DNA of 19,538 bases from Candidatus Zhuqueibacterota bacterium (lineage in GTDB: Bacteria; BS750m-G25), in assembly GCA_016783505.1 (NCBI GenBank), contig JADHWK010000040.1:1-19538 (forward strand), given 5' to 3'. Position 1 is the stretch's first letter. Each line of letters starts with the position of its first letter. Under the pieces are notes generated by a model, which was given only the letters and a program-made list of their open reading frames with translations, did not search any database and had not been told where the DNA came from. Below, piece after piece: positions 4,747 to 17,884 of this stretch. The position numbers and the translations under genes were made by a program.

Positions 4747-4969
4747 AAGTTATGTTTAAACTATTGTATTTTTCAATGATGTAGAGTTTTGGAGTGCATC
4801 GTTCATCTAATAATCGTATATCGTTTATCCCGAAGCTTCGGATAGCCTGTATCGAAGCCCGGTTTTGCCGAATACCGAATGCCGTTACCGAAAACCGATA
4901 CGGGCGGCGTCACCGATAAACCAGTTACGATTGTAGTCTGATTAATTTTTACAATAATTTAGTTATGTA

Positions 4970-5590
4970 TTAATGAGCACGAACAATCTCTTTAACCTTC
5001 ATCAGTCGGGTGAGGTTGGAGCGCTCCAGCTCACTCAGTTTGTCGCCTATGAACCTGATGGTCTCCTCTAAGCTTGGTATCAGAATATATTCAAGGGCGT
5101 TCACCCGGCGCCTGGTGGTCTCCAGCTCAGCGGCGAGTAGTTGCAGGGATTTTTCCCTCTCCGCCATCTTGATCATCAGGGGCAATACCCCATAAAAAAT
5201 TCCCAGGGCCAGATCCAGATTTCCTGAAGTGTCCGCGAATCCGTAGGAGAACTGGCCATCCTGCCATTCTAACTTAAATTCGGGAATCCTTAAATTCATA
5301 ACCGGCAGCACGGAGACCTTAAGCTGTGCCTTTTTCTGGGAAAAGGACAGGGCCCCTTCCAGGATCTCCCTGTCCATTTCAAAGCGAGCGGACAGAAAAG
5401 CCCGGTATCCCTCGCTCAGCTTCTCCTCTACCTCTCCCCTCAGTTCCCTGGTCTCTTTTACCAGGGCCAGGAATCTACGCATCAGCTCCTCTTGTTTGTC
5501 CTTCAGGAGCTTATGCCCCCTTCGGGCAAAGGCCAGCCTCCTCCGCAGACGGAGCATCTCCATTCGGTTAGGATTGACCCTCAATCTCAT
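4970..5590 (-). CDS. atpD: V/A-type ATP synthase subunit D
   Basis: 206 residues, the usual length of V-ATPase subunit D (NtpD/AtpD), the central rotor shaft in the A3B3 head. The N-terminal pattern is diagnostic: NPNRMEMLRLRRRLAFARRG, then HKLLKDKQEELMRRFLALVK. So is the C-terminal NALEYILIPSLEETIRFI near residues 165-182. Both ends form the long coiled coil that turns inside the head. It comes last in the F-A-B-D order, as expected, but is separated from subunit B by 1.4 kb carrying two attC-like cassettes, and its leader starts right after the last attC site. A 9-bp stem (5627-5635 with 5658-5666) sits in that leader. The ribosome site is weak (GGGAAG). Confidence 0.95.
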   Translation of the reverse strand: MRLRVNPNRMEMLRLRRRLAFARRGHKLLKDKQEELMRRFLALVKETRELRGEVEEKLSEGYRAFLSARFEMDREILEGALSFSQKKAQLKVSVLPVMNLRIPEFKLEWQDGQFSYGFADTSGNLDLALGIFYGVLPLMIKMAEREKSLQLLAAELETTRRRVNALEYILIPSLEETIRFIGDKLSELERSNLTRLMKVKEIVRAH

Positions 5591-5694
5591 AATCCGTCTT
5601 CCCAGATTTTAATGATATTCATTGATAAATCCGAAATTCGAAGGTTCGGGATCGTGATTCGGATTTTTCAATGTCCTCTGTTTTGCAACGAAGT

Positions 5695-5761
5695 CTCAAA
5701 CGTAAAGCTCAGCCGCCGTGGCCGCGGAGCGGACACGGTCGGCTGAAGCGATAAGTTAGGG
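5695..5761 (-). other. attC recombination site 1 (after the small membrane-protein cassette)
   Basis: Read on the minus strand, the ends are CCCTAAC (R'', 5755-5761) and GTTTGAG (R', 5695-5701). Between them is a 14-bp stem: 5707-5720 pairs with 5734-5749. It has two unpaired extrahelical bases (5739 and 5746), both on the high-coordinate arm, and a 13-nt loop (5721-5733). Unpaired spacers separate the stem from the end boxes. This is the R-UCS-L-EHB-VTS plan of integron attC sites. R' departs from GTTRRRY at its fourth base and at its last base. Confidence 0.75.
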
Positions 5762-6173
5762 AATTCAAATTAATCTTTACCCCGCAAACGTATCTTTAAA
5801 ATTGTTTGCGGGAGATGCCCCGTAATACCTGCTATAGCTACTAATGATAAAAATATCAATAATGCAGAAATTCCTACGCTAATTTTCGATAAATCACCGA
5901 TGCTGTTTATAATCTTGTAGATAAAATAAATACTTAACCACCCAATTGCTGAACCAATAAAATTAAACCAAAATTGAAATAGACCCGATATAAATAACCA
6001 TTCCCACGTAGATTTATTTTTCAAGCCCTCAGAAGGCGTTTTAAAATCAAGATATGATTTACTTAAGGCTCTTATCGCAAAATATAACGTAGTAAATATA
6101 CTTACGACAATAAACGTCATCTTCATACTTAGCACCTCTGTTTAAGGATTATATGAAATACGAAATTGCCTAA
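5701..6173 (-). mobile_element. Integron-type gene cassette carrying a small membrane protein
   Basis: Bounded by the G/TTAGGC cut position of attC site 2 (6174/6173) and the cut position of attC site 1 (5701). The cassette's first seven bases (GTTAGGC box) are complementary at 6 of 7 positions to its own R'' box (CCCTAAC), as expected for a cassette that circularises. It contains one gene and one attC site, in the usual gene-then-attC order. Confidence 0.65.
5770..6126 (-). CDS. Small three-helix membrane protein, cassette cargo
   Basis: 118 residues from ATG at 6126, chosen because AGAGGTG lies 6-7 bases upstream; an earlier in-frame GTG at 6135 overlaps that site. About three membrane helices: residues 1-20 (MKMTFIVVSIFTTLYFAIRA), about 44-73 (LFISGLFQFWFNFIGSAIGW and onward), and about 84-104 (VGISALLIFLSLVAIAGITG). 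The C-terminus is basic (ILKIRLRGKD) and probably cytoplasmic. No family recognised. It is AT-rich compared with the flanking ATPase genes. It ends 9 bp before an attC-like site and starts 41 bp after another, which marks it as cassette cargo. Small membrane proteins of unknown function are frequent in integron cassettes (established for other arrays). Confidence 0.75.
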   Translation of the reverse strand: MKMTFIVVSIFTTLYFAIRALSKSYLDFKTPSEGLKNKSTWEWLFISGLFQFWFNFIGSAIGWLSIYFIYKIINSIGDLSKISVGISALLIFLSLVAIAGITGHLPQTILKIRLRGKD

Positions 6174-6242
6174 CGCTCCGCATAACCGGCTGGCAATGGA
6201 GCGCAGCGGAATTGCCAGTCCGAGTTGATGCGGTTGTTAGCT
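6168..6242 (-). other. attC recombination site 2 (best site in the window)
   Basis: Minus strand: R'' is AGCTAAC (6236-6242). R' is GTTAGGC (6168-6174), a perfect GTTRRRY core. A 20-bp stem lies between: 6178-6197 pairs with 6211-6233, interrupted only by three extrahelical single bases (6219, 6223, 6227), all on the same arm. The loop is 13 nt (6198-6210). Short unpaired spacers sit between stem and R boxes. Extrahelical bases confined to one arm decide strand choice in integron attC sites, so this structure is hard to explain as an ordinary hairpin. Confidence 0.88.
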
Positions 6243-6810
6243 GCAAATATGCTTAGCTTAAACTATTAGCTACAAAGTCTTGGTATTCAGTAAATAGTTC
6301 CCAGGTTTCAACATAACCAAAGAACTTCAATTCTAAATGCTTGCCATCCATTGAGGCATCAATTGTTCTGCCTTTCCAAGAGACAGGCAGAAGGCTCTTG
6401 TCATATTTCTTAAATTCAAACCTGAAATTATGAGAAAGACAGTTCCTAATCATTCGTGCAAATTGATACCATGATTCTGCTTTGAATGCAGAATCCTGTT
6501 TCGTCTTATCGCAATAATTCTTGATAAGCTCAAAAGACTCCTTGATAAGAGCTCGAATCTGCGAAGTAAGAAATTCCTTAATCGCGATATCACGGTCAGC
6601 AGATTTCATCAGAAGATTCTTGACCTGTTTGAATTCAACCGTGTAGGTTCCAAATTTGGCGTGGCTCTCTTCCAAAATTGGATAGACCTTTTCGTTTGAA
6701 AAAAGAGAAATTGCCGCCAGCCCAAGAATGTAGTTGTTCTTGGCATTCTCCAACTGACTCATAAGTTCCTTTTTTGTCATATGCACTCCGAACTATTTTT
6801 GTGCAGCTAA
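6174..6810 (-). mobile_element. Integron-type gene cassette carrying a HEPN-like protein
   Basis: The cassette runs from the cut position in GTTAGCT at 6811/6810 to the G of the next site at 6174. Its two ends match exactly: TGCAGCTAAC at 6802-6811 is the reverse complement of GTTAGCTGCA at 6236-6245 (10 of 10). In integrons the R'' box of a cassette pairs with the first bases of that same cassette in the excised circle, and this is what is seen. Confidence 0.75.
6253..6780 (-). CDS. HEPN-like protein (candidate RNase or toxin), cassette cargo
   Basis: 175 residues from ATG at 6780; GGAG lies 5 bases upstream, better placed than for the in-frame GTG at 6786. The protein is mostly helical. 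Residues 107-119 (FARMIRNCLSHNF) contain R112-x4-H117, the R-x4-6-H signature of HEPN-domain RNases, placed after a long helix, as in that fold. A beta-rich tail follows (FRFEFKKYDKSLLPVSW, then GKHLELKFFGYVETWELF). HEPN proteins act as RNA-cleaving toxins or defence effectors, or as nucleotide-binding partners; which applies here is unknown. No adjacent antitoxin gene is evident. It is AT-rich and sits between two attC-like sites. The HEPN call rests on one motif plus helical context. Confidence 0.6.
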   Translation of the reverse strand: MTKKELMSQLENAKNNYILGLAAISLFSNEKVYPILEESHAKFGTYTVEFKQVKNLLMKSADRDIAIKEFLTSQIRALIKESFELIKNYCDKTKQDSAFKAESWYQFARMIRNCLSHNFRFEFKKYDKSLLPVSWKGRTIDASMDGKHLELKFFGYVETWELFTEYQDFVANSLS

Positions 6811-6857
6811 CATATAATAGACGGCCGAAATGCCGTGTTATAACACTGCGTTTAGGC
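6805..6857 (-). other. attC-like site 3, degenerate (array edge next to subunit B)
   Basis: Minus strand: R'' GCCTAAAC (6850-6857) and R' GTTAGCT (6805-6811) flank a short stem: TATAA (6813-6817) pairs with TTATA (6838-6842), and ACGGC (6821-6825) with GCCGT (6832-6836), around a 6-nt loop. The unpaired bases are not on the arm seen in sites 1 and 2, so it may be a decayed attC or a non-canonical entry site. Its R' supplies the start of the HEPN cassette. Confidence 0.5.
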
Positions 6858-7006
6858 CTTATAAAAACCATTTATTAACTTGGGTTTCATAATAAAAATC
6901 CTAATGTTATGAACAATGATTGTTTTTTTTAGACTGCAACTTTCCCAGTCTAACAATTATGGTGCTTCTCTGTTTTTGATCATCTGTTTGATTTTCCAAA
7001 ACTGTA

Positions 7007-8383
7007 TTAAGCCTTTTCCTTCATATACTTTTTGATATGTTCATCTTTGACCCGTTTAAGCTCTTCCCTGGGCAGAAGCCCCAGCAGTTCCCAGCCCAGG
7101 TTTAGGGTTTCCTCAATCGTTCGATTTTCATCAAGGGTCTGTTGAACGTATCTTCTCTCAAACTCTTCGGAAAATTTAAGGAGGGCCCGGTCGGTCTCGG
7201 TGAGGGCCGCTTCCCCAAGGATCACCTTCAGCTCCTCAGCCTCCTTTCCCCTGGCATAGGCGGCAAAGAGCTGATTGGAAAGCCCGGCGTGATCCTCCCG
7301 GGTTTTGCCTTCTCCGATGCCCCTATCCCTGAGCCGAGAAAGGGAGGGTAAGACATTGATGGGGGGATAGATCCCCTTCCGCTGAAGGGCCCGATCGAGA
7401 ATGATCTGTCCCTCGGTGATGTATCCGGTGAGGTCGGGGATAGGATGGGTCTTATCATCCTCGGGCATGGAAAGGACGGGGATCTGGGTTATGGATCCCT
7501 TTTTCCCCTGAATACGCCCGGCTCGTTCATAGACCGTAGCCAGATCGGTGTAAAGGTAGCCCGGGTAGCCCCGCCTGCCCGGGACCTCTTTTCTGGCGGC
7601 TGAAATCTCCCTTAGGGCCTCGCAGTAGTTGGTCATATCGGTGAGTATGACCAGGACGTGCATGTCCTTATCAAAGGCCAGATATTCAGCGGTGGTCAGG
7701 GCCAGCCGGGGGGTGGCCAGGCGTTCAATGGCCGGGTCGTCGGCTAAATTTACGAAGAGCACCGCCCGGTCAATGGCGCCGGTGCGCTTAAAGTCAGTTA
7801 TGAAATAATTGGCCTCCTCAAAGGTGATCCCCATGGCCCCAAAGACCACAGCGAATTTCTCCTCTTTGCCTAATACGGTGGCCTGCCTGGCAATTTGGGC
7901 CGCCAGTTCCGGGTGGGGCAGGCCGAAGCCGGAGAAGATGGGAAGCTTCTGTCCCCTTACCAAAGTATTAAGCCCATCAATGGCCGAGATCCCGGTCTGA
8001 ATAAATTCCGAGGGATAATCCCGGGCGTAGGGATTGGTGGGATTGCCGCTGATGTCGAGGCGCTTTTCAGGGATAATCCTCGGGCCCCCGTCAATGGGAT
8101 GCCCCATTCCGTCGAAGACCCGGCCCAGCATATCCAGGGAGACCCCCAGTTCGATCCCCTTGCCCATAAATCTTATCCGGCTTTTATAGACATCAACGCC
8201 GCTGGAGCCCTCAAAGAGCTGAACCAGGGCCTTATCATAGTGTACCTCTAAAACCTTTCCCCGACGTATTTCCCCGGTGGGCATCTCCAATTCCACCAAC
8301 TCATCGAACTTTACCCCTTCCACACCCCCCACCAACACCAGGGGTCCCACGATCTCCTCTACGGTCAAATACTCTTTAGCCAT
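7007..8383 (-). CDS. atpB: V/A-type ATP synthase subunit B
   Basis: 458 residues, the usual length of the non-catalytic regulatory B subunit (NtpB/AtpB), which alternates with A in the A3B3 head. Family landmarks in order: [20 protein letters not shown] near the start; [39 protein letters not shown] with [20 protein letters not shown] where the catalytic subunit has its P-loop; [53 protein letters not shown]; and [17 protein letters not shown]. The missing classical P-loop is normal for B. An AGGAG site lies before the ATG. In most bacteria B directly follows A; here 7 kb of unrelated genes lie between, and a hairpin repeat (8413-8485) sits 30 bp upstream of this start codon. Confidence 0.98.
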
Positions 8384-8412
8384 TTAATTCTCCTGGTTTC
8401 ACCTGTCTGTAT

Positions 8413-8485
8413 CAGCATAAAAAAAGGTTTTGCGAAGTAAAAATCTAGGTGAGCCCTGATCTATTGGAACGAACCTTTTATGCTG
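8413..8485. repeat. Hairpin repeat H, copy 1 (overlaps the stop of the PIN-like gene)
   Basis: A 73-bp element starting CAGCATAAAA and ending TTTTATGCTG, so its ends form an inverted repeat, with a further AAGGTT/AACC match inside. It is about 70% identical to copy 2 at 9874-9944 in the same orientation. The stop codon of the gene at 8478-9824 lies inside its GCATAA end. Confidence 0.75.
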
Positions 8486-9824
8486 GGTCATTGGAAGTTA
8501 CTGTAATATTACTTTTTTTTTGCACTCTATAAAGCGTTGTGTATGGCTCACGCCAACTCTCACCATAAACTTCATTCACTTTATCCAAATGTTCCCTGGG
8601 GGCTCTTAATTCTATATCATTCAAATAATTTAAAAATTCATCTTTTATGTTTTGTGAGAAAACCTTTGTTCCATAATCAATGGCATCGTGTAAGGGTTGT
8701 TCATTTAAATACGTTTGGCATTCGTTATCTATGAACATGGCATTGCAATATGGTAATAAGACTGATATAATTTCAATATCATTAGCCATTCCTTGATTTG
8801 GTGGTTTCTTTCTGCCGGTGGCAGCTTTACGTGCTAATGCTGCATACAACATGGAAGAAATTTTAATAAATGGGACATCTTTTAGAGAAGAAGAATCCAG
8901 ATATTCAACGGTCTTCGGCCATATATCTGAATCCTGGATGCCAGCCTTTCTAAAAGCGTCGTGTATTGAATGGATAAAAACAATAGACGACGGAGGGAAT
9001 ATGTCATTCGCTGTTAGCTCAACATGCCCTATGGATATTTCTGCGGATTTTTTTAGATAATTTAAGTATATTTGTAAAGTTACCCTACCAAATGCCATAC
9101 TTTCTTTTTCAAACCAGTAATCAAAAGTTTTATTTCTTTCAGATTGCCATTGCTTAAAAAGTTTACTTAATCCTTTATGCATTTCTTCTCTGTTTTTACG
9201 GAGCTCATCTATCCAATCTAAACCATATTGTATATTCACTGAGATAATTAATCTATCTTGCCAAGCATTGATATTTCCATTAACTACGGTATGCACGTCT
9301 AAATTTAATGCCTTATCCGCCTTCCCAGAAATCCAATTTATTGCATGTTCGTATATCTGAAATCTTTTGATGGTTTCATGATCGTAAAACCTGACATCAT
9401 GAGATAGTAGTTCATACATCCGCTTTAAAGGTTTAAAATATGGTGACAAAAGAGACTCATCAGTGTGAAACCCTGAATCAGGACATGTGATAAGCTGCAA
9501 TTTACAAAGGCTATCTAACCTTTCAAAAAGCCTTACCCAAAATTCATCTAATGTTCCTTTCTTGTATGGTTTCGTTTGAGGGTTAAGCGCTTTCATCATG
9601 TTGCTAATCGCAAATTGGTCAACATAAACAACCTTCTTGTTTAATTCTGGAAGGGGATAGCTTGATGCGGGTTCAGTTCCACGTGGGAAGAAGCAGTCTT
9701 TACATCTTCTACAATAATGATGGTTGCAAATCATTAGAATGCCAAAGCTCTTTTTTCCGCATTTTGGACATTTAATGTATGGTGGAGAGATAAATGTTCT
9801 TGGATCAAAATTAATAGTTTTCAT
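8478..9824 (-). CDS. Zinc-ribbon protein with PIN-like nuclease domain (putative)
   Basis: 448 residues. The N-terminus is a cysteine-rich zinc ribbon: C19-x2-C22-G, then C33-x-H-H-x-C38-x2-C41-x2-C44. After it comes VVYVDQFAIS with D69, a beta strand ending in an acidic residue followed by helix, the usual start of a PIN-like fold. Far downstream ANDIEIISVLLPYCNAMFID carries D349, E351 and D366, fitting the later acidic residues of PIN nucleases. The roughly 280 residues between form a helical insert. PIN-like domains are metal-dependent ribonucleases common in toxin and defence systems; activity here is inferred. The coding region is AT-rich, and two direct copies of repeat H bracket it. 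The ribosome site is weak (AAAGGA, 13 bases upstream of the ATG). Confidence 0.6.
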   Translation of the reverse strand: MKTINFDPRTFISPPYIKCPKCGKKSFGILMICNHHYCRRCKDCFFPRGTEPASSYPLPELNKKVVYVDQFAISNMMKALNPQTKPYKKGTLDEFWVRLFERLDSLCKLQLITCPDSGFHTDESLLSPYFKPLKRMYELLSHDVRFYDHETIKRFQIYEHAINWISGKADKALNLDVHTVVNGNINAWQDRLIISVNIQYGLDWIDELRKNREEMHKGLSKLFKQWQSERNKTFDYWFEKESMAFGRVTLQIYLNYLKKSAEISIGHVELTANDIFPPSSIVFIHSIHDAFRKAGIQDSDIWPKTVEYLDSSSLKDVPFIKISSMLYAALARKAATGRKKPPNQGMANDIEIISVLLPYCNAMFIDNECQTYLNEQPLHDAIDYGTKVFSQNIKDEFLNYLNDIELRAPREHLDKVNEVYGESWREPYTTLYRVQKKSNITVTSNDPA

Positions 9825-9873
9825 TTTGGTTTCAACATCCTTTATCTATCAGAGCAATTTTCAATAATGTTTC

Positions 9874-9944
9874 CAGCATAAAAGAAGTTTTTACTAAGCA
9901 AAAATTTTGGGGTGAGTGCCGTAAGGCACGAACCTTTTATGCTG
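9874..9944. repeat. Hairpin repeat H, copy 2 (upstream of the PIN-like gene)
   Basis: A 71-bp element with the same CAGCATAAAA...TTTTATGCTG ends as the copy at 8413-8485 and the same direction. It has an internal GTGCC-GTAA-GGCAC hairpin. It is immediately followed (9946-9963) by the terminal box of the neighbouring HEPN-like unit, an arrangement resembling an attC stem next to its R'' box. No GTTRRRY box is found at its other end. Confidence 0.7.
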
Positions 9945-9945
9945 T

Positions 9946-9963
9946 GTTAACCGATGCGGCCGC
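9946..9963. repeat. Terminal inverted box of the DUF4145-like unit, 3' side
   Basis: On the plus strand GTTAACCGATGCGGCCGC; its partner at 10663-10680 is GCGGCCATTTCGGTTAAC. They are complementary at 15 of 18 positions and enclose exactly one gene (9979-10644). This resembles the R''/cassette-start complementarity seen at 6236-6245 and 6802-6811. Confidence 0.6.
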
Positions 9964-9978
9964 TGATTTTCATTTAAG

Positions 9979-10644
9979 TCATTTAAGATATTCACTAGCA
10001 AATCTCTGTACCCATTTGACCATATCCTTAACATCCAACTCGGTAAATTGCTCAAACTTAGCATGATCAGCATTATTCCGAATATCTGCTTTGGCAGTAA
10101 TTTCCTTCTGCGTAAGCTTATTGTATGCTCCATCCCTTGCTAAAGAAGTATTGAGTGCGTCTATTTTAGTCTTTTTGGGATAGGGTATATTCCGTTGATC
10201 ACACATTTTCCGTAGCGTATCTTCCAGGACCGCCCCTGTGAGAGATGCAGCTGGAACATAATACCCTTCATTGAGCAGTGTTTCGGCTTGTTCTATAAAA
10301 CTACCAAGTAGATCTGCTCTTATCATAGCCCGTATATCAAATAGAAAATCCTCTGAGAAGTCACGGTATGCCGCTTCTAACACTCCATAACATTGATGGT
10401 AATAAAAACTACTGCCGGATGCACGCTTATCTTCAGCCAAACGCCTCATTTGCTGATAATGTTCGCTTTCTTCACCACAAGTTCGCTTAATGAGATTTAA
10501 ACTTTCGGTGCGGAATCGTAGATAGTCAACATCCGATGGATGCCTATCCCACTGCCTTCCATCCCAACCACATTCCTGAAAGACTCTCTTCCCTTCTGCC
10601 AAAAGCTTTTCAAACTTTTCTTTGATTTTCTCATTCATGCCCAT
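9979..10644 (-). CDS. DUF4145/HEPN-like protein
   Basis: 221 residues, soluble and helical. The C-terminal half looks like the DUF4145 branch of the HEPN superfamily: SFIEQAETLLNEGYYVPAAS, LTGAVLEDTLRKMC, a linker with PYPKKTKIDALN, then KADIRNNADHAKFEQFTELD with R189-x4-H194, the R-x4-6-H motif. The N-terminal 110 residues are unassigned. DUF4145 domains are often found in restriction and defence proteins and in stand-alone genes of unknown role. A good AAGGAG site lies 6 bases before the ATG. The gene is enclosed by an 18-bp imperfect inverted box pair and by hairpin repeat H on its 3' side. Cleavage activity is not shown by the sequence. Confidence 0.65.
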   Translation of the reverse strand: MGMNEKIKEKFEKLLAEGKRVFQECGWDGRQWDRHPSDVDYLRFRTESLNLIKRTCGEESEHYQQMRRLAEDKRASGSSFYYHQCYGVLEAAYRDFSEDFLFDIRAMIRADLLGSFIEQAETLLNEGYYVPAASLTGAVLEDTLRKMCDQRNIPYPKKTKIDALNTSLARDGAYNKLTQKEITAKADIRNNADHAKFEQFTELDVKDMVKWVQRFASEYLK

Positions 10645-10662
10645 TTAATACTCCTTGTTTTA

Positions 10663-10680
10663 GCGGCCATTTCGGTTAAC
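10663..10680. repeat. Terminal inverted box of the DUF4145-like unit, 5' side
   Basis: Partner of 9946-9963 (15 of 18 complementary). It lies about 20 bases upstream of the ATG at 10644 and overlaps the start of the spacer repeat at 10676-10807. It also pairs locally: ATTTCGGTT with AACCGAAAT across 10 bases. Confidence 0.6.
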
Positions 10681-10807
10681 TTAAAACAACCGAAATACTT
10701 CGTTTACCCTTTTAGATAGTATCCCATTAGATAATAAATATCTAACAGGACAGAGCATCTAACGAAGTATATGCTCCAAATTAATTTATTTTACAAAACC
10801 CAACTGA
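10676..10807. repeat. Spacer repeat S, copy 1 (132 bp)
   Basis: Three blocks recur in the same order and spacing class at 11438-11571. Block 1 is 10676-10714 (33 of 39 identical to 11438-11476). Block 2 is a GCATCTAACGRRGTNTATGCT hairpin core (10753-10776). Block 3 is the AAACCCAACTGA end (10796-10807). The part 10729-10785 is also about 86% identical to 12603-12661. Read on the minus strand, block 2 contains CGTTAGATGC, which fits the GTTRRRY integron R' consensus. Confidence 0.65.
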
Positions 10808-10816
10808 GTGGATATT

Positions 10817-11395
10817 TTAGCTTGACTTCGGTCTTTTAAAAGATCTTAGGCCTAAAAGCTCATACATATTTTGTTCCATTAGCATTTTTAATAATTCTAT
10901 ATTCTTTAACCCTTTTTGTAAAGCATTCTCATAAGTAATATCGAAGTTTCCCTTTTTTAGGGAATTCCAGCTCATATTATATTTCTTACTGCTAAGAAGG
11001 GAAAAATTCTCCTCTGAAATATCATCTCGATCTAACTTAAACAATTGTCTTATCCGAAAATTATCTCCCAACCTCAAAATAATAAGTTCATTAAAGATTT
11101 GCCGCTCAACTTTATCCTTAGATAACCAACAGCCAACAGGATTACTTTCTGATTTTCTAATAGTTTTTACTTCAATCTTCTTCCCAGTCTTAGGGTCAAT
11201 ACAATCAAATCCTTTTTCAGATGGGTTAGTATTTATTTTATAATTAAAAAGAATGGAAACATACCATTCACCAATTTCTGGAATAACCTTTCTCGTTCGA
11301 ACGATTTTAAGCTCTTTTAGTCTTTCTTCGATTTTATTATACTTATCAAGAAGGGAGAGCACAACTTTTATCTTTCGAAATCTATCGTCTTTCAT
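10817..11395 (-). CDS. PD-(D/E)XK-like putative nuclease
   Basis: 192 residues. The segment E40-I-G-E43...G62-F-D64-C-I-D-P-K-T-G-K-K-I-E75-V-K77 has the E...D...E-x-K layout of the PD-(D/E)XK restriction-endonuclease fold. An N-terminal helix carries E43, then beta hairpins carry the D and the E-V-K. The remainder is basic and helical. Stand-alone proteins of this kind occur beside restriction-modification systems, but no methylase is present in this window. The coding sequence is strongly AT-rich compared with the ATPase genes, and it lies exactly between the two copies of spacer repeat S, which suggests acquisition as a unit. There is no clear ribosome site, so the start is less certain. 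Nuclease function is inferred. Confidence 0.6.
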   Translation of the reverse strand: MKDDRFRKIKVVLSLLDKYNKIEERLKELKIVRTRKVIPEIGEWYVSILFNYKINTNPSEKGFDCIDPKTGKKIEVKTIRKSESNPVGCWLSKDKVERQIFNELIILRLGDNFRIRQLFKLDRDDISEENFSLLSSKKYNMSWNSLKKGNFDITYENALQKGLKNIELLKMLMEQNMYELLGLRSFKRPKSS

Positions 11396-11437
11396 GAATT
11401 TGCCCTATTGCAATTAATAAACTTCGGGCTTTTCCGC

Positions 11438-11571
11438 TTAAATTAAAATAACCGTAATAGTTCGTTTACTCTATTATATAGCTAGCATCTAACGGGGTTT
11501 ATGCTCTCATATTGATATACCCGCCTGCCGAAGTCCCGGGACGGCGGGCAGGTTTTGCGAAACCCAACTGA
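11438..11571. repeat. Spacer repeat S, copy 2 (134 bp)
   Basis: Same three blocks as 10676-10807, with different filler. Here a GC-rich CCTGCC/GGCAGG hairpin (about 11524-11552) sits between blocks 2 and 3. Together with copy 1 it brackets the gene at 10817-11395. Confidence 0.65.
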
Positions 11572-11597
11572 TAGGAATAAATTCCTATCCTAATTTA
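11563..11597. repeat. Direct repeat T, copy 1, with perfect palindrome
   Basis: CCCAACTGATAGG followed by an AT-rich palindrome (GATAGGAAT-AA-ATTCCTATC, 11570-11589), ending at the guaA stop codon. About 30 of 35 bases match the copy at 15010-15044, in the same orientation. Confidence 0.6.
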
Positions 11598-12563
11598 CTA
11601 AATAGCCTCAATAGTTGAAGGCGGTTTTTTGGTTATGTTGTAAGTAACACTTACAACCCCTGATACTTCCGTTGTTATCCTTTCTGCTAATCTATCCAAA
11701 GTTTCATAGGGAAGTCTGGTTGGTGATCCCGTTATTGCATCTTTGCTATCCCAGCATCTTACCTCTATCTGCAAGCCATAATCCCTTTTCCCTTCTCTAA
11801 CACCGGTGACTCTATCTTCATGCAAGATTGCCAAGTATTGAAATGCCTTTGTATTACATAATTCTTCTTCAACAATTTTCGTAGCTTTTCTTACAATTTC
11901 TACTCTTTCCGGCGTGATTTCTCCTATTATTCTTGCCGCTAAGGCGGGGCCCGGAAAGGGTGGCCTCTTATATATTTCCTCTGGGAGATCCAGAACCTTC
12001 GCCACCCTTCTTATCCCTGATTTTCTAAGCTGGATTAAAGGTTCTATTACTTTATATCCATATGTCTCTTCTGTATCAATTCCAAGCTGTGCTAAGATAT
12101 TGTGCTGTCTTTTAATGCCTGCCACAGTTTCTTCTACATCGGTTAAATTTGTCCCCTGCAAAAGATATTTCGCACCGCTCTCCATTACTAAATTACCAAA
12201 AACATCTTTGTAAAATGCCTGGGTAATAGCTTCTCTTTTTTCTTCAGGATCTGTGAGACCTCTTAATCCGTCAAAAAAGATCTCATTGGCATCAAAAAGT
12301 TCAACATTTACTCCCATATCTTCAAACAATGAAATGATATGTTCAGGTTCACCCTCTCTCATTATACCGTTATCAATAAAATACGTTTTGAGCCTATCAC
12401 CTAAGGCTCTATGCCCTAATATAGTTACGGTTGAAGAGTCAACCCCACCAGACAAAGCATTGACAGCTAAGCCAGTTCCAACGATAGAGGAGATCTCTTC
12501 CACTTTTAGTTTTATAAATTCTTCAGGATGTAAATCCTCCGTTTTTATTTCCTCAATTTTCAT
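11598..12563 (-). CDS. guaAB: GMP synthase, ATP-pyrophosphatase subunit (GuaA C-terminal type, no glutaminase domain)
   Basis: 321 residues. The PP-loop ATP-pyrophosphatase motif SGGVDSS is at 38-44. It is followed by GMP-synthase landmarks: FIDNGIMREGE, LLQGTNLTDV, GIKRQHN, then GYKVIEPLIQLRKSGIRRVA, RPPFPGPALAARIIGEITPE and the C-terminal dimerisation domain ending KKPPSTIEAI. It would aminate XMP to GMP using ATP and ammonia. The fused glutaminase domain of ordinary bacterial GuaA is absent, so this is the separate-subunit form known from archaea, and the partner glutaminase is not in the window. The C-terminus departs from the usual KPPGTIEWE ending. An AGGAGGG site precedes the ATG. It is AT-rich and sits inside the insert splitting the V-ATPase operon, so a transferred or paralogous copy is possible. 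Confidence 0.85.
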   Translation of the reverse strand: MKIEEIKTEDLHPEEFIKLKVEEISSIVGTGLAVNALSGGVDSSTVTILGHRALGDRLKTYFIDNGIMREGEPEHIISLFEDMGVNVELFDANEIFFDGLRGLTDPEEKREAITQAFYKDVFGNLVMESGAKYLLQGTNLTDVEETVAGIKRQHNILAQLGIDTEETYGYKVIEPLIQLRKSGIRRVAKVLDLPEEIYKRPPFPGPALAARIIGEITPERVEIVRKATKIVEEELCNTKAFQYLAILHEDRVTGVREGKRDYGLQIEVRCWDSKDAITGSPTRLPYETLDRLAERITTEVSGVVSVTYNITKKPPSTIEAI

Positions 12564-12602
12564 TATACCCTCCTAATTAGTTTGAAATAATCTAATCCTT
12601 AT

Positions 12603-12661
12603 AGATAGTAAATATCTAACTGGACGAGAGCATCTAACGGAGTTTATACTCCCAAATTAAC
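12603..12661. repeat. Spacer repeat S, partial copy 3
   Basis: 59 bp about 86% identical to 10729-10785 (six substitutions and two single-base indels), including the GAGCATCTAACGGAGTTTATACTCC core. Blocks 1 and 3 of the full spacer are missing. It lies directly upstream of guaA. Confidence 0.6.
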
Positions 12662-12732
12662 ATGTTTTTCCTGGCAACATCGGGATTAATGCACGCTTAT
12701 CGGTGAAGCTTTACTCTCGTTGCTTTCTCCTC

Positions 12733-13563
12733 CTAACTTTTACGGGTACTAAGCAGGGCCATAATAACACCTCCTAAACCAAGCACCGAGGCGACTACCT
12801 TGACCAGCCAGCCCAGAAAGGGCACCCAACCAACTAACCCCAGAATTATTATCCCCCACAACGTCCCCCAGAGCATATTAAGATCGGGCTTCTTCAGGGC
12901 TAAAGCCATCCTATTGCCGATAAGCTGGGCCACCGCAATGTAACCTACCAGAAATGCACAGCCGACCAGAATAATTTCCACCGGTATCAATACTATACCC
13001 ACCACCGATACGGCCAGTAATATTACTAACGGAACGATCAGCACCATCCCCAGAAGCCCCCACAAGAATACTTTCAGAGTGTTTTTCTCCACCGCAGTCG
13101 AAATTTTGCCGATTGGCTTCGGGATAATCGCCACAATCAACAATGCCAGGGCTAAAAAACCGATAAAAACGACAATTCTAAAAGGCCAGAACAACCCCAG
13201 GCCTATACCTTTGCAAACAGATGTAACAGCCCAAGGAATACCAATAATGTCAACCTCAACTTCATCCCCGTATACTATTGCTCCTTCCTCCTTTTTTATG
13301 GTTCCCCCTACCGAAACCGCATCCCCGTCCACTACTGCCCTCGGACCCAAGATAACCGAACCCCCCACCGCCACGGCATCACCATCAACCACACCGTTTA
13401 CGGTAACATCCCCGCCGATGGCCACCGCATCGCCTACCCTCATCCCTTCTTTAACCACAAGATCGCTGCCAATCTTAACTATGTCCTTAACCCCTGCTCC
13501 AGCTATGGGAAGAAATGCCAGGGACAACCCCAAAAGCAGCAAAAAAACAATCCATTTTTTCAT
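12733..13563 (-). CDS. Bactofilin-like beta-repeat protein with membrane helices
   Basis: 276 residues. Signal peptide at 1-23 (MKKWIVFLLLLGLSLAFLPI, then AGA). Residues about 40-100 hold a short right-handed beta-helix of six- to eight-residue steps (VGDAVAIGGDVTVNGVVDGD, then AVAVGGSVILGPRAVVDGD), as in polymer-forming bactofilin-like domains. The C-terminal two thirds hold four or five membrane helices, among them FRIVVFIGFLALALLIVAII and LLGMVLIVPLVILLAVSVVG. The beta-helix is predicted outside the cytoplasm, unlike classical cytoplasmic bactofilins. The role is unknown. An AAGGAG site lies 9 bases before the ATG. The GNAT-like gene ends 32 bp upstream, so the two are probably co-transcribed. 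Confidence 0.7.
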   Translation of the reverse strand: MKKWIVFLLLLGLSLAFLPIAGAGVKDIVKIGSDLVVKEGMRVGDAVAIGGDVTVNGVVDGDAVAVGGSVILGPRAVVDGDAVSVGGTIKKEEGAIVYGDEVEVDIIGIPWAVTSVCKGIGLGLFWPFRIVVFIGFLALALLIVAIIPKPIGKISTAVEKNTLKVFLWGLLGMVLIVPLVILLAVSVVGIVLIPVEIILVGCAFLVGYIAVAQLIGNRMALALKKPDLNMLWGTLWGIIILGLVGWVPFLGWLVKVVASVLGLGGVIMALLSTRKS

Positions 13564-13595
13564 CTTGCGTTTCTCCTTTCTATCTTCATAGCATA

Positions 13596-14711
13596 TTACT
13601 CCAGCGGCATTTCATAGACCCGGTATTTCCGCACCAGCTCCATTCCCAATTTAAGGAGGGCGCCCTTCATGGCGAAATTGTCCTCCAGCACGTAATTCGC
13701 CTCCAGACGAGCACCCCTCGGTTTGAGCGCTTCGTAGGTACGAAGGTAGAGCAGCGTATCAATGCCCCGACGCTGATATTCTTTGACGATGCCCAGAGCC
13801 CAGAGACGATAGCTATTGATCTTCTTGATTCCCTTCAACATTCTGAAGAATACAAAAGGAAACAACCGGCCATTCAGTTTTTTGAGAATCACATTAATGT
13901 CAGGGAAGGTGATGGAGTAGCCAATGGGCTCGCCTTTGGCTTCTACGATGAAAACTATACTGGGGTCTAGGATCCGCTTGACTTCCTTGGCGATGCTGGT
14001 GGCTTCGGCATCAGTCACCGGGGAGAATCCCCAGTTTCCATCAATTGAGCGATTGGTCAGCCCTGTTATGATGCGGATGTCCCGGACTAGGTGCTTTGGG
14101 TCCACTGTACGCACCCTGATGCCATACTTATTTTTAATTCTCTGGGAGTATCTCTTAAAGCGCTCGGGCAGCTCCCATACGGCCATATCTACCGCGTAGG
14201 CTTCCAGGTCTTTGGCCTTGGTCAGGCCGAAGGCCCCCATTTGATTGTTGTAATAGGGCGGGTTGTAGGGTGACATAAGGACTGGCGAGTAATCGAACCC
14301 TTCGATGATGAATCCTGCATTCTGGACCTCAAAATTAATGGGGCTGGGGCCGCGCATAGTCGTCATCCCCCGGGCCACTAACCAATCCCGGGCCACGGTC
14401 AGGAGGGCCCGGGAAGTATCGGTGCAATCCACACACTCGTATGAGCCGAAACTGCCTATCTTCGTTCCCCAATATTCATTGGCATGACGATCAATAAAAA
14501 CTGCTATCCGTCCCATTAGCTCTCCGTCATCATAAGCCACAAAGTAGGCATAATCGCAATGTAGGAGCATCGGATTCCGGCGGCCGTCAAACATCTTCTT
14601 CTGCTCGCTCCTTAAAGGCGGCACCCAATAGGGATCATTTCGGTACAATTTATAAGGGAGTTCCAGAAAGCGCCGAAGTTCCCGCCGTGAAGTTACCTCT
14701 CTAATCTCCAT
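13596..14711 (-). CDS. GNAT-fold acyltransferase-like protein (YghO-like)
   Basis: 371 residues. The N-terminus resembles a widespread family of roughly 370-390-residue GNAT-fold proteins: FLELPYKLYRNDPYWVPPL, then PMLLHCDYAYFVAYDDGELM and GRIAVFIDRHANEYWGTKIG. A central SPYNPPYYNNQMGAFGLTKA segment follows. The C-terminal half holds an acetyl-CoA-binding type motif (ALGIVKEYQRRGIDTLLYLR) where Q-R-R-G-I-D corresponds to the R/Q-x-x-G-x-G/A loop. It is probably an N-acyltransferase; the substrate is unknown. No strong ribosome site is seen before the ATG. It is less AT-rich than the nuclease-like genes further on, so it may have a different origin within the same insert. Confidence 0.75.
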   Translation of the reverse strand: MEIREVTSRRELRRFLELPYKLYRNDPYWVPPLRSEQKKMFDGRRNPMLLHCDYAYFVAYDDGELMGRIAVFIDRHANEYWGTKIGSFGSYECVDCTDTSRALLTVARDWLVARGMTTMRGPSPINFEVQNAGFIIEGFDYSPVLMSPYNPPYYNNQMGAFGLTKAKDLEAYAVDMAVWELPERFKRYSQRIKNKYGIRVRTVDPKHLVRDIRIITGLTNRSIDGNWGFSPVTDAEATSIAKEVKRILDPSIVFIVEAKGEPIGYSITFPDINVILKKLNGRLFPFVFFRMLKGIKKINSYRLWALGIVKEYQRRGIDTLLYLRTYEALKPRGARLEANYVLEDNFAMKGALLKLGMELVRKYRVYEMPLE

Positions 14712-14767
14712 TTATTGATAAGGTGTTATACGCAACGAATGAGTGGGTGTAGTGAGCGAGGAATCGC

Positions 14768-14974
14768 TTATTTCCCAAATGCTTTGTATGTTGGTTTTAT
14801 CCCTGCTAACACGCCAATTACAGCATACCAATACCAGTCTAAACTAAGCAACGGCTCCCAAAGTTTTGCTATCATTAGAACAAAACCAGCACCGCAAAGT
14901 TGTAGTAGTTTTACGTCTACCCAGCTTAATTCTGCCTTTTTTACTGTTGAATTTACCCAGGTTATAAAACCCAT
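14768..14974 (-). CDS. Small two-helix membrane protein
   Basis: 68 residues from ATG at 14974. A strong AAGGAGG lies 10 bases upstream; the alternative GTG at 14983 would be only one base from it. Two hydrophobic segments are visible: LLQLCGAGFVLMIAKLWEPL and about WYWYAVIGVLAGIKPTY. The short, basic C-terminus (KAFGK) is probably cytoplasmic. Family not named. It is the first gene after V-ATPase subunit A in reading order, beyond a 434-bp hairpin-rich gap, and 56 bp upstream of the GNAT-like gene. Confidence 0.7.
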   Translation of the reverse strand: MGFITWVNSTVKKAELSWVDVKLLQLCGAGFVLMIAKLWEPLLSLDWYWYAVIGVLAGIKPTYKAFGK

Positions 14975-15408
14975 ATTTTTCACACCTCCTTATTGTTTGG
15001 ATTCGCTAGCCCAATTGATAGATATAAATTCCTATCCTAATCTAAATGGGAATCCCGAATATTCGGGATAAAACATCTCTAAAAACATCTAATCCAATTG
15101 ACCAGTCAGGCATCCGGGGCTGTGGTAGAACTATCGCGATTGATAATTTAGGGGTTATGTTTAGAACCGCTCTAAAGAGCGGTTCTGGTTAAATGGCTAT
15201 TAAAGAAAGCTTTAACCAGTCCGCTGTACCCGGTCCCAAGATCGCTTTGCGACTAGGGTAGGAGGCTACGCCCAACCTTATCCCGATGCTTCGGGATAGG
15301 TTCTGCCCCTTGCTGGGCAGGCGAGATCTTCAGACGGAAAATCAACAATTTTTGGGTTGTGCCACAGGCCCATTCGACTGATTGGATTTACAAATAACCC
15401 TTAGATTG
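14975..15408. other. Hairpin-rich gap downstream of subunit A
   Basis: No coding frame I would accept. It contains the perfect palindrome ATCCCGAATATTCGGGAT (15052-15069), a 10-bp stem AGAACCGCTC/GAGCGGTTCT with TAAA loop (15163-15186), an 8-bp stem TATCCCGA/TCGGGATA (15279-15298) and repeat T copy 2 (15010-15044). None has a proper T-run on the minus strand, so none is a clear terminator; they could be folded elements left by insertions. Confidence 0.6.
15010..15044. repeat. Direct repeat T, copy 2
   Basis: Matches 11563-11597 at about 30 of 35 positions in the same orientation, 3.4 kb away. The two copies enclose guaA, the bactofilin-like, the GNAT-like and the small membrane-protein genes. 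Confidence 0.55.
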
Positions 15409-17804: not shown

Positions 17805-17836
17805 AGACAATCCCAGTTATTGCCGTTTAGCAGTTG

Positions 17837-17884
17837 AGCTAACGCGCGCGGTTTATCGCGTCGCTGTTCAGTGCCTTGTTAGGT
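17837..17884 (-). other. attC-like site after the ZIP transporter gene
   Basis: Minus strand: R'' ACCTAAC (17878-17884), a perfect RYYYAAC, and R' GTTAGCT (17837-17843). A short stem lies inside: GCG-CGCG (17844-17850) pairs with CGCG-CGC (17857-17864), with one extrahelical base at 17861 on the same arm as in sites 1 and 2, and a 6-nt loop. The spacer on the R'' side is about 12 nt but is absent on the R' side, so one arm may have lost sequence. Confidence 0.6.

Follow-up and report, generated by a model that had tools for sequence, protein, structure and literature searches.

An integrase-less array of two integron cassettes, headed by a dispersed conserved element, in a V-ATPase operon of Candidatus Zhuqueibacterota

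Results

An insert separates atpB and atpD

The window analysed in this study, i.e. the whole stretch of DNA examined, comprises 19,538 nt of contig JADHWK010000040.1 (here labelled C53) of GCA_016783505.1, a draft genome of Candidatus Zhuqueibacterota consisting of 89 contigs, about 60% complete and with a contamination estimate of 1.8%. It carries an operon of V-type ATP synthase genes, in which the intact genes atpB and atpD lie 1,416 nt apart; 1,110 nt of this distance are made up of two gene cassettes, placed on the minus strand, which also encodes the V-ATPase (Table 1). In each of the ten genomes used for comparison in which both genes are visible, the two adjoin one another (-17 to +13 nt); none of these genomes is a close relative, since they come from other phyla. 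Moreover, the F-A-B-D gene order of two genomes (G042 and G023) is uninterrupted and contains no cassette genes at this place. An earlier note on this DNA had proposed that integron cassettes reside at the B/D junction of the operon, on its coding strand, and had suggested that the spacing of the two genes be compared with that in related genomes. The comparison agrees with this proposal: the insert is missing from 10 of 10 genomes, i.e. its genes and structures are not retained in these (not closely related) bacteria.

The DNA segments on both sides of the array, of 143 and 110 nt, are also missing from the other genomes compared. They are unaccounted for, and we count them against the explanation of the locus by cassette insertion. 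It is highly improbable that the contig joins foreign cassette DNA to the operon through an error of assembly or binning: the sequence is a fragmented and incomplete draft, but intact operon genes are present on either side of the insert within one contig, the element heading the array is common to other contigs of the bin, and the contamination estimate is low. Promoter- and terminator-like matches in the region 4900-8500 were no more common than in shuffled sequences; one weak promoter-like match falls within the head element.

Table 1. Positions of the features described in this study (window coordinates, unless another sequence is named)
Feature	Position	Strand	Characteristics
atpB	7007..8383	-	V-type ATP synthase subunit B; NCBIfam PRK04196, 790.7 bits; upstream neighbour of the insert, intact
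Left flank	6864..7006	-	143 nt, atpB to head element
Array-head element	6811..6863	-	Palindrome around GTGTTATAACAC, then GGCCGTCTATTATATG; last base is the G of G|TTAG
Cassette 2	6174..6810	-	637 bp, first in array; TTAGCTGC... gene ... attC ... G; G|TT boundaries
Cassette gene 2	6253..6780	-	175 aa; conserved R-x4-H motif (RNCLSH)
attC site 2	6168..6242	-	R'' AGCTAAC, 3 extrahelical bases, 20-bp stem, 13-nt loop, R' GTTAGGC
Cassette 1	5701..6173	-	473 bp, second and last in array; G|TT boundaries
Cassette gene 1	5770..6126	-	118 aa; ORF and translation; hydrophobic
attC site 1 (terminal)	5695..5761	-	R'' CCCTAAC, 2 extrahelical bases (T, A), 14-bp stem, R' GTTTGAG
Right flank	5591..5700	-	110 nt, array end to atpD; inverted repeat 5620-5635/5658-5673
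atpD	4970..5590	-	V-type ATP synthase subunit D; Pfam ATP-synt_D, 177.1 bits; downstream neighbour, intact
Insert at the A|B junction	8384-15408		About 7 kb
Gaps with GAGCATAAACnCCGTTAGATGCTC core	10645-10816, 11396-11597, 12564-12732		Core at 10753, 11483 and 12628
Palindromic repeat, ~80 nt	8413-8488, 9870-9950		On either side of the gene for the 448-aa protein
Weak attC-like site	17825-17884		R box GCTAAAC; possibly decayed
intI remnant (C44)	L009 2866-3193
attI-region candidate (C44)	L009 3182-3315
Duplicated pieces (C44)	L009 5314-5365, 5419-5552
attC-like hairpins (C82)	L010 6158-6295, 5372-5445		Long hairpins

The attC sites

Both attC sites are real. Each contains R boxes, a 5-nt spacer on the R'' side and a long stem, and the unpaired bases (two in site 1, three in site 2) occur only on the 5' arm of the minus strand, i.e. 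the top strand of the cassette. A scan for the succession of R'', stem and R' with unpaired bases on one arm recovered both sites, in which 18 and 22 positions are paired and bulges (2 and 3, respectively) occur solely on the L'' side, while a site of comparable strength was present in 0 of 60 dinucleotide shuffles of the window. When folded as single-stranded DNA, the plus strand (the bottom strand of the cassette) is the more stable one in both cases, as expected for attC: -25.2 versus -19.5 kcal/mol for site 1, and -22.1 versus -20.7 kcal/mol for site 2. R boxes, stem and extrahelical bases are canonically spaced, following the plan 7-5-3-EHB-6-EHB, which fits all 11 attC sites of plasmids used for comparison as well as other sites of this genome.

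Two covariance models were built, with the window sites held out of each. The first (R1), based solely on the 11 attC sites of annotated plasmid integrons, placed these two sites at ranks 1 and 2 of the window (E-values of 0.067 and 0.097 with filters off) and found stronger sites on other contigs when applied genome-wide. The second (R2) was constructed from the plasmid sites, sites of this genome and one site of a Ca. Acetothermia contig; it detected the two sites with E-values of 3.6e-6 and 2.7e-4 in the window, and of 4.6e-4 and 7.5e-4 (32.7 and 31.8 bits) genome-wide, all values obtained with either model being rough. The order of gene and attC is correct, with only 8 and 10 nt between the stop codon and R''. 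Models, geometry, folding and shuffles therefore uphold what had been read from the letters, namely two complete attC sites following two single-gene units in the proper orientation, and the search with covariance models, proposed as a check, does find both.

Strong hairpins do lie between genes, and those described here might be imagined as vertically inherited terminators or RNA elements instead of recombination sites. We hold this to be extremely unlikely, given the matches to the covariance models and the pattern of extrahelical bases, the lack of the structures in ten other genomes, and the occurrence of one of the cassette genes in several phyla.

Cassette boundaries and cassette genes

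The cassettes begin with TTAG and end with G. Complementarity between R'' and R' is higher in the excised circle than in the array, both for cassette 2 (7/7 versus 5/7 positions) and for cassette 1 (6/7 versus 5/7). The same holds for known plasmid arrays and local arrays, where 8 of 8 correctly registered cassettes match at 7/7 positions as circles and at fewer within the array (row L027, one base out of register, is left out of this count). The poor R' of site 1 results from the fact that its last six bases are derived from the flank. Thus, both units have the make-up of integron cassettes: a gene with an attC close behind it, and G|TT boundaries which restore the complementarity of R'' and R' in the circle.

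The two attC sites of the array lie within 4 kb of one another, and the intI model had no match on contig C53, so that an integrase gene beside the array, as in a complete integron, was not found. With at least two such sites and no integrase in the window, the array is by definition a CALIN, in line with the earlier description of a CALIN-like array with no integrase nearby.

The protein encoded by cassette gene 1 is, judging from its translation, probably a small membrane protein. It matched no family of Pfam, NCBIfam or PADLOC, and no relative was found in plasmids or viral contigs. Cassette gene 2 also had no match in these three collections; close relatives of its product exist in metagenome-assembled genomes (MAGs) of two other phyla (79-87% identity), once within an attC array. 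One of them is encoded on a Desulfobacula MAG contig (85.7% identity). The other, a Ca. Acetothermia MAG protein, is similar over three pieces (79-87% identity; the copy there is frameshifted) and sits among genes with attC sites, two of which score 60.0 and 52.5 bits. These close relatives retain R-N-C-L-S-H, and more distant ones are encoded by Bradyrhizobium and Rhizobium plasmids. The R-x4-H motif resembles the HEPN pattern, which may be taken as a lead, not a result; structure prediction for the 175-aa product gave a mean pLDDT of 54, too poor for a fold search or for a check of this lead. A DNA similarity search of the insert against plasmids gave no match, and relatives of either cassette gene were not found in viral contigs.

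A conserved element heads the array

A weaker, third attC site had been assigned to positions 6805-6857, closing the array. The structure is real, but its assignment to attC has to be abandoned: neither model matches the site, its extra bases are located on the wrong arm, and it is repeated in the genome. The sequence is instead a conserved, dispersed element of ~55 nt, which precedes the first cassette. A BLAST search with the region 6805-7006 against its own genome revealed copies at C37, C23, C72 and C30, and two at C13. Including C53, the genome holds seven strong copies of the head element and two degenerate ones; among the weaker copies, that at C59 is more divergent, and one at C30 is degenerate. 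In an alignment, the copies have in common a palindrome around GTTATAACAC, behind which come GGGCAGTCTATTATATG and then the G|TTAG junction. The exact head pattern was not found in viral contigs.

Each of the seven strong copies immediately precedes a gene, always in the same orientation, and none was found empty. The gene starts 10-45 nt after the head for most of them, and 263 nt after it at C37. An attC follows the first gene at five of the seven (C53, both C13 copies, C37 and C30), those at C37 and C30 with low scores (18.7-22 bits). At C72 an attC-like site, detected by the geometric scan and not by the model, occurs only ~2.2 kb downstream, and contig C23 ends before any attC could be read. 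The model detected no attC at the weaker C59 copy.

On average, 6.3 of 8 copies carry the majority base at positions upstream of the junction, compared with 4.2 of 8 downstream of it (+5 to +32). A recombination point would leave such a drop of conservation at G|TTAG. The element is placed as an attI site would be, at the head of the array and with a G|TTAG junction. Two candidate relationships by sequence were tried and rejected: similarity to attI1 reached the level of about 5% of shuffles or less in just 3 of 8 copies, and the head is unlike the attI-region candidate of C44 (see below). In the absence of significant likeness to attI1 (for most copies) or to the C44 repeat, it can be called attI-like by position only.

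These observations bear on a simpler explanation, according to which the cassettes were inserted into the genome at non-classical sites of the attG type (G|TT), the palindrome being a frequent repeat that happens to make a good target. Insertion at attG sites is an established process (cited in PMC12901181 and PMC11023631), most head copies are not significantly attI1-like, and the examined stretches of C17 and C44 have attC sites with no head element. Even so, we consider this explanation rather unlikely, since conservation stops at G|TTAG and 7 of 7 strong copies immediately precede a gene, in one orientation, with none found empty.

Other attC loci and a broken integrase gene

A genome-wide search for intI and for further attC sites, as the earlier note had advised, yielded attC sites on at least eight contigs and an integron locus with a broken intI. 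Model R2 gave fourteen attC matches at E <0.01, distributed over contigs C2, C13, C17, C39, C44, C53, C72 and C73, while in other genomes it gave no match at E 0.01 or better in seven of nine cases and clustered matches in the remaining two. The array is not a lone oddity. Neighbours of attC sites include dnaB and relA/spoT (C2) and genes for an NAD-dependent DNA ligase (C72), an H+-pyrophosphatase (C73) and a radical SAM protein (C13). At the loci of C2, C13, C17, C44, C53, C72 and C73 the cassette genes have the same direction as their host neighbours, an observation for which the background rate is unmeasured. The head element was not found in the examined stretches of C17 and C44 that carry attC sites.

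The intI remnant of C44 lies between DegP-like protease and purB-like genes (named from their translations). Residues 12-69 (50% identity to IntI1) are joined directly to residues 278-319 (76%), the middle part being deleted, and the two parts overlap by 8 nt where they meet. The 134 nt following the remnant, an attI-region candidate, recur 2.2 kb downstream with 87% identity, where they head a gene; this duplicate is accompanied by a 52-nt piece of intI, and the two copies cease to match just past a GTT. No full intI above the family cut-off was found in the assembly, which is about 60% complete, and a functional intI could therefore be missing from it. At one end of contig C82 lies a truncated tyrosine recombinase gene, with two more attC-like hairpins, both long, close to it.

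The decay of the C44 integrase gene by internal deletion, together with the duplicated attI-region candidate, raises the question of whether the heads are remnants of several once-complete integrons, each of which lost intI and kept its attI region and a few cassettes. Such an origin would suit a survey of MAGs in which most arrays are CALINs (PMC9668308) and the progressive loss of integron activity described in Xanthomonas (PMC12444791). We nevertheless judge it improbable. At five of the head loci a mere 25-145 nt or so separate the element from the end of the host gene upstream, a space too small for intI, and the dispersed head differs from the attI-region candidate of C44.

Other features of the operon

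The A|B junction of the operon is also split. The genes of this insert encode a GNAT protein, a membrane protein, PP-loop/GMP-synthase-like, mREase_II-like and HEPN-like proteins, and a 448-aa protein; none of them occurs at the corresponding locus in G023 or G042, and the covariance models gave no attC match within the insert. Three consecutive intergenic gaps have in common a palindromic element with the core GAGCATAAACnCCGTTAGATGCTC, which was not found elsewhere in the genome, and they could be another kind of modular array. The palindromic repeat bordering the gene for the 448-aa protein recurs, whole or partial, at C27, C36, C19, C75 and C82. A weak attC-like site (15.7 bits with R2) is placed between a Zip transporter gene and the gene for V-ATPase subunit F. 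An Rfam scan of the window gave a tRNA as its sole match.

Discussion

CALINs, their occurrence in MAGs and their spread over genomes are already known (PMC9024848, PMC9668308, PMC12444791). The array described here shares with them a minimum of two attC sites in 4 kb, the lack of a neighbouring intI and cassette genes in array order, but differs in that a conserved head precedes its first cassette and recurs at other arrays of the genome. The dispersed CALINs of Xanthomonas are likewise small arrays located beside housekeeping genes and away from intI; however, their positions are fairly conserved among species, and the available part of that report (PMC12444791) mentions no shared head.

The insertion of cassettes at attG sites (Loot et al. 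2024, Nat Microbiol, as cited in PMC12901181 and PMC11023631) also places them outside the integron platform, at a G|TT point and among housekeeping genes. According to these citing articles attG sites are divergent and widespread, whereas here a conserved repeat lies upstream of the first cassette; the reference state of the locus, with atpB and atpD abutting, comes from other, not closely related genomes. In the chromosomal integron of Treponema the array head is, as in our case, just upstream of the first cassette, yet one attI per integron is the norm stated there (PMC3607928), in contrast to the seven strong heads of this genome, none of which was found beside intI. Among the titles and abstracts retrieved for several or orphan attI sites, none deals with shared, dispersed array heads, which is weak evidence. 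Integrase-less arrays are thus already known, while a shared dispersed array head looks new.

We consider it likely that a two-cassette array with its head, lacking an integrase gene of its own, arose between atpB and atpD through the action of an integron integrase in trans. The enzyme, acting from elsewhere, would take free cassette circles, whose bottom strands fold into attC hairpins, and join these hairpins to the G|TT point. The conserved palindromic element, common to at least six other loci, would most likely be the attI-like landing site, a role that it may play judging from its position and from its pattern of conservation. Cassette 2 would then occupy the promoter-proximal place beside the head element, and expression of the cassettes would probably depend on read-through of the V-ATPase operon or on the head element itself.

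A bolder, tentative extension, which we regard as possible though not favoured, is a decentralised integron, in which many attI-like palindromes are placed downstream of housekeeping genes and one integrase acting in trans loads cassettes into operons. If this were true, cassettes would be loaded directly into host operons and transcribed at once. Whether arrays come to lie far from an integrase through the loss of intI or through insertion in trans is an open question. A conserved head repeated at many arrays would offer a further, directly testable answer to it, and would show how cassettes are able to enter essential operons with no integron promoter dedicated to them.
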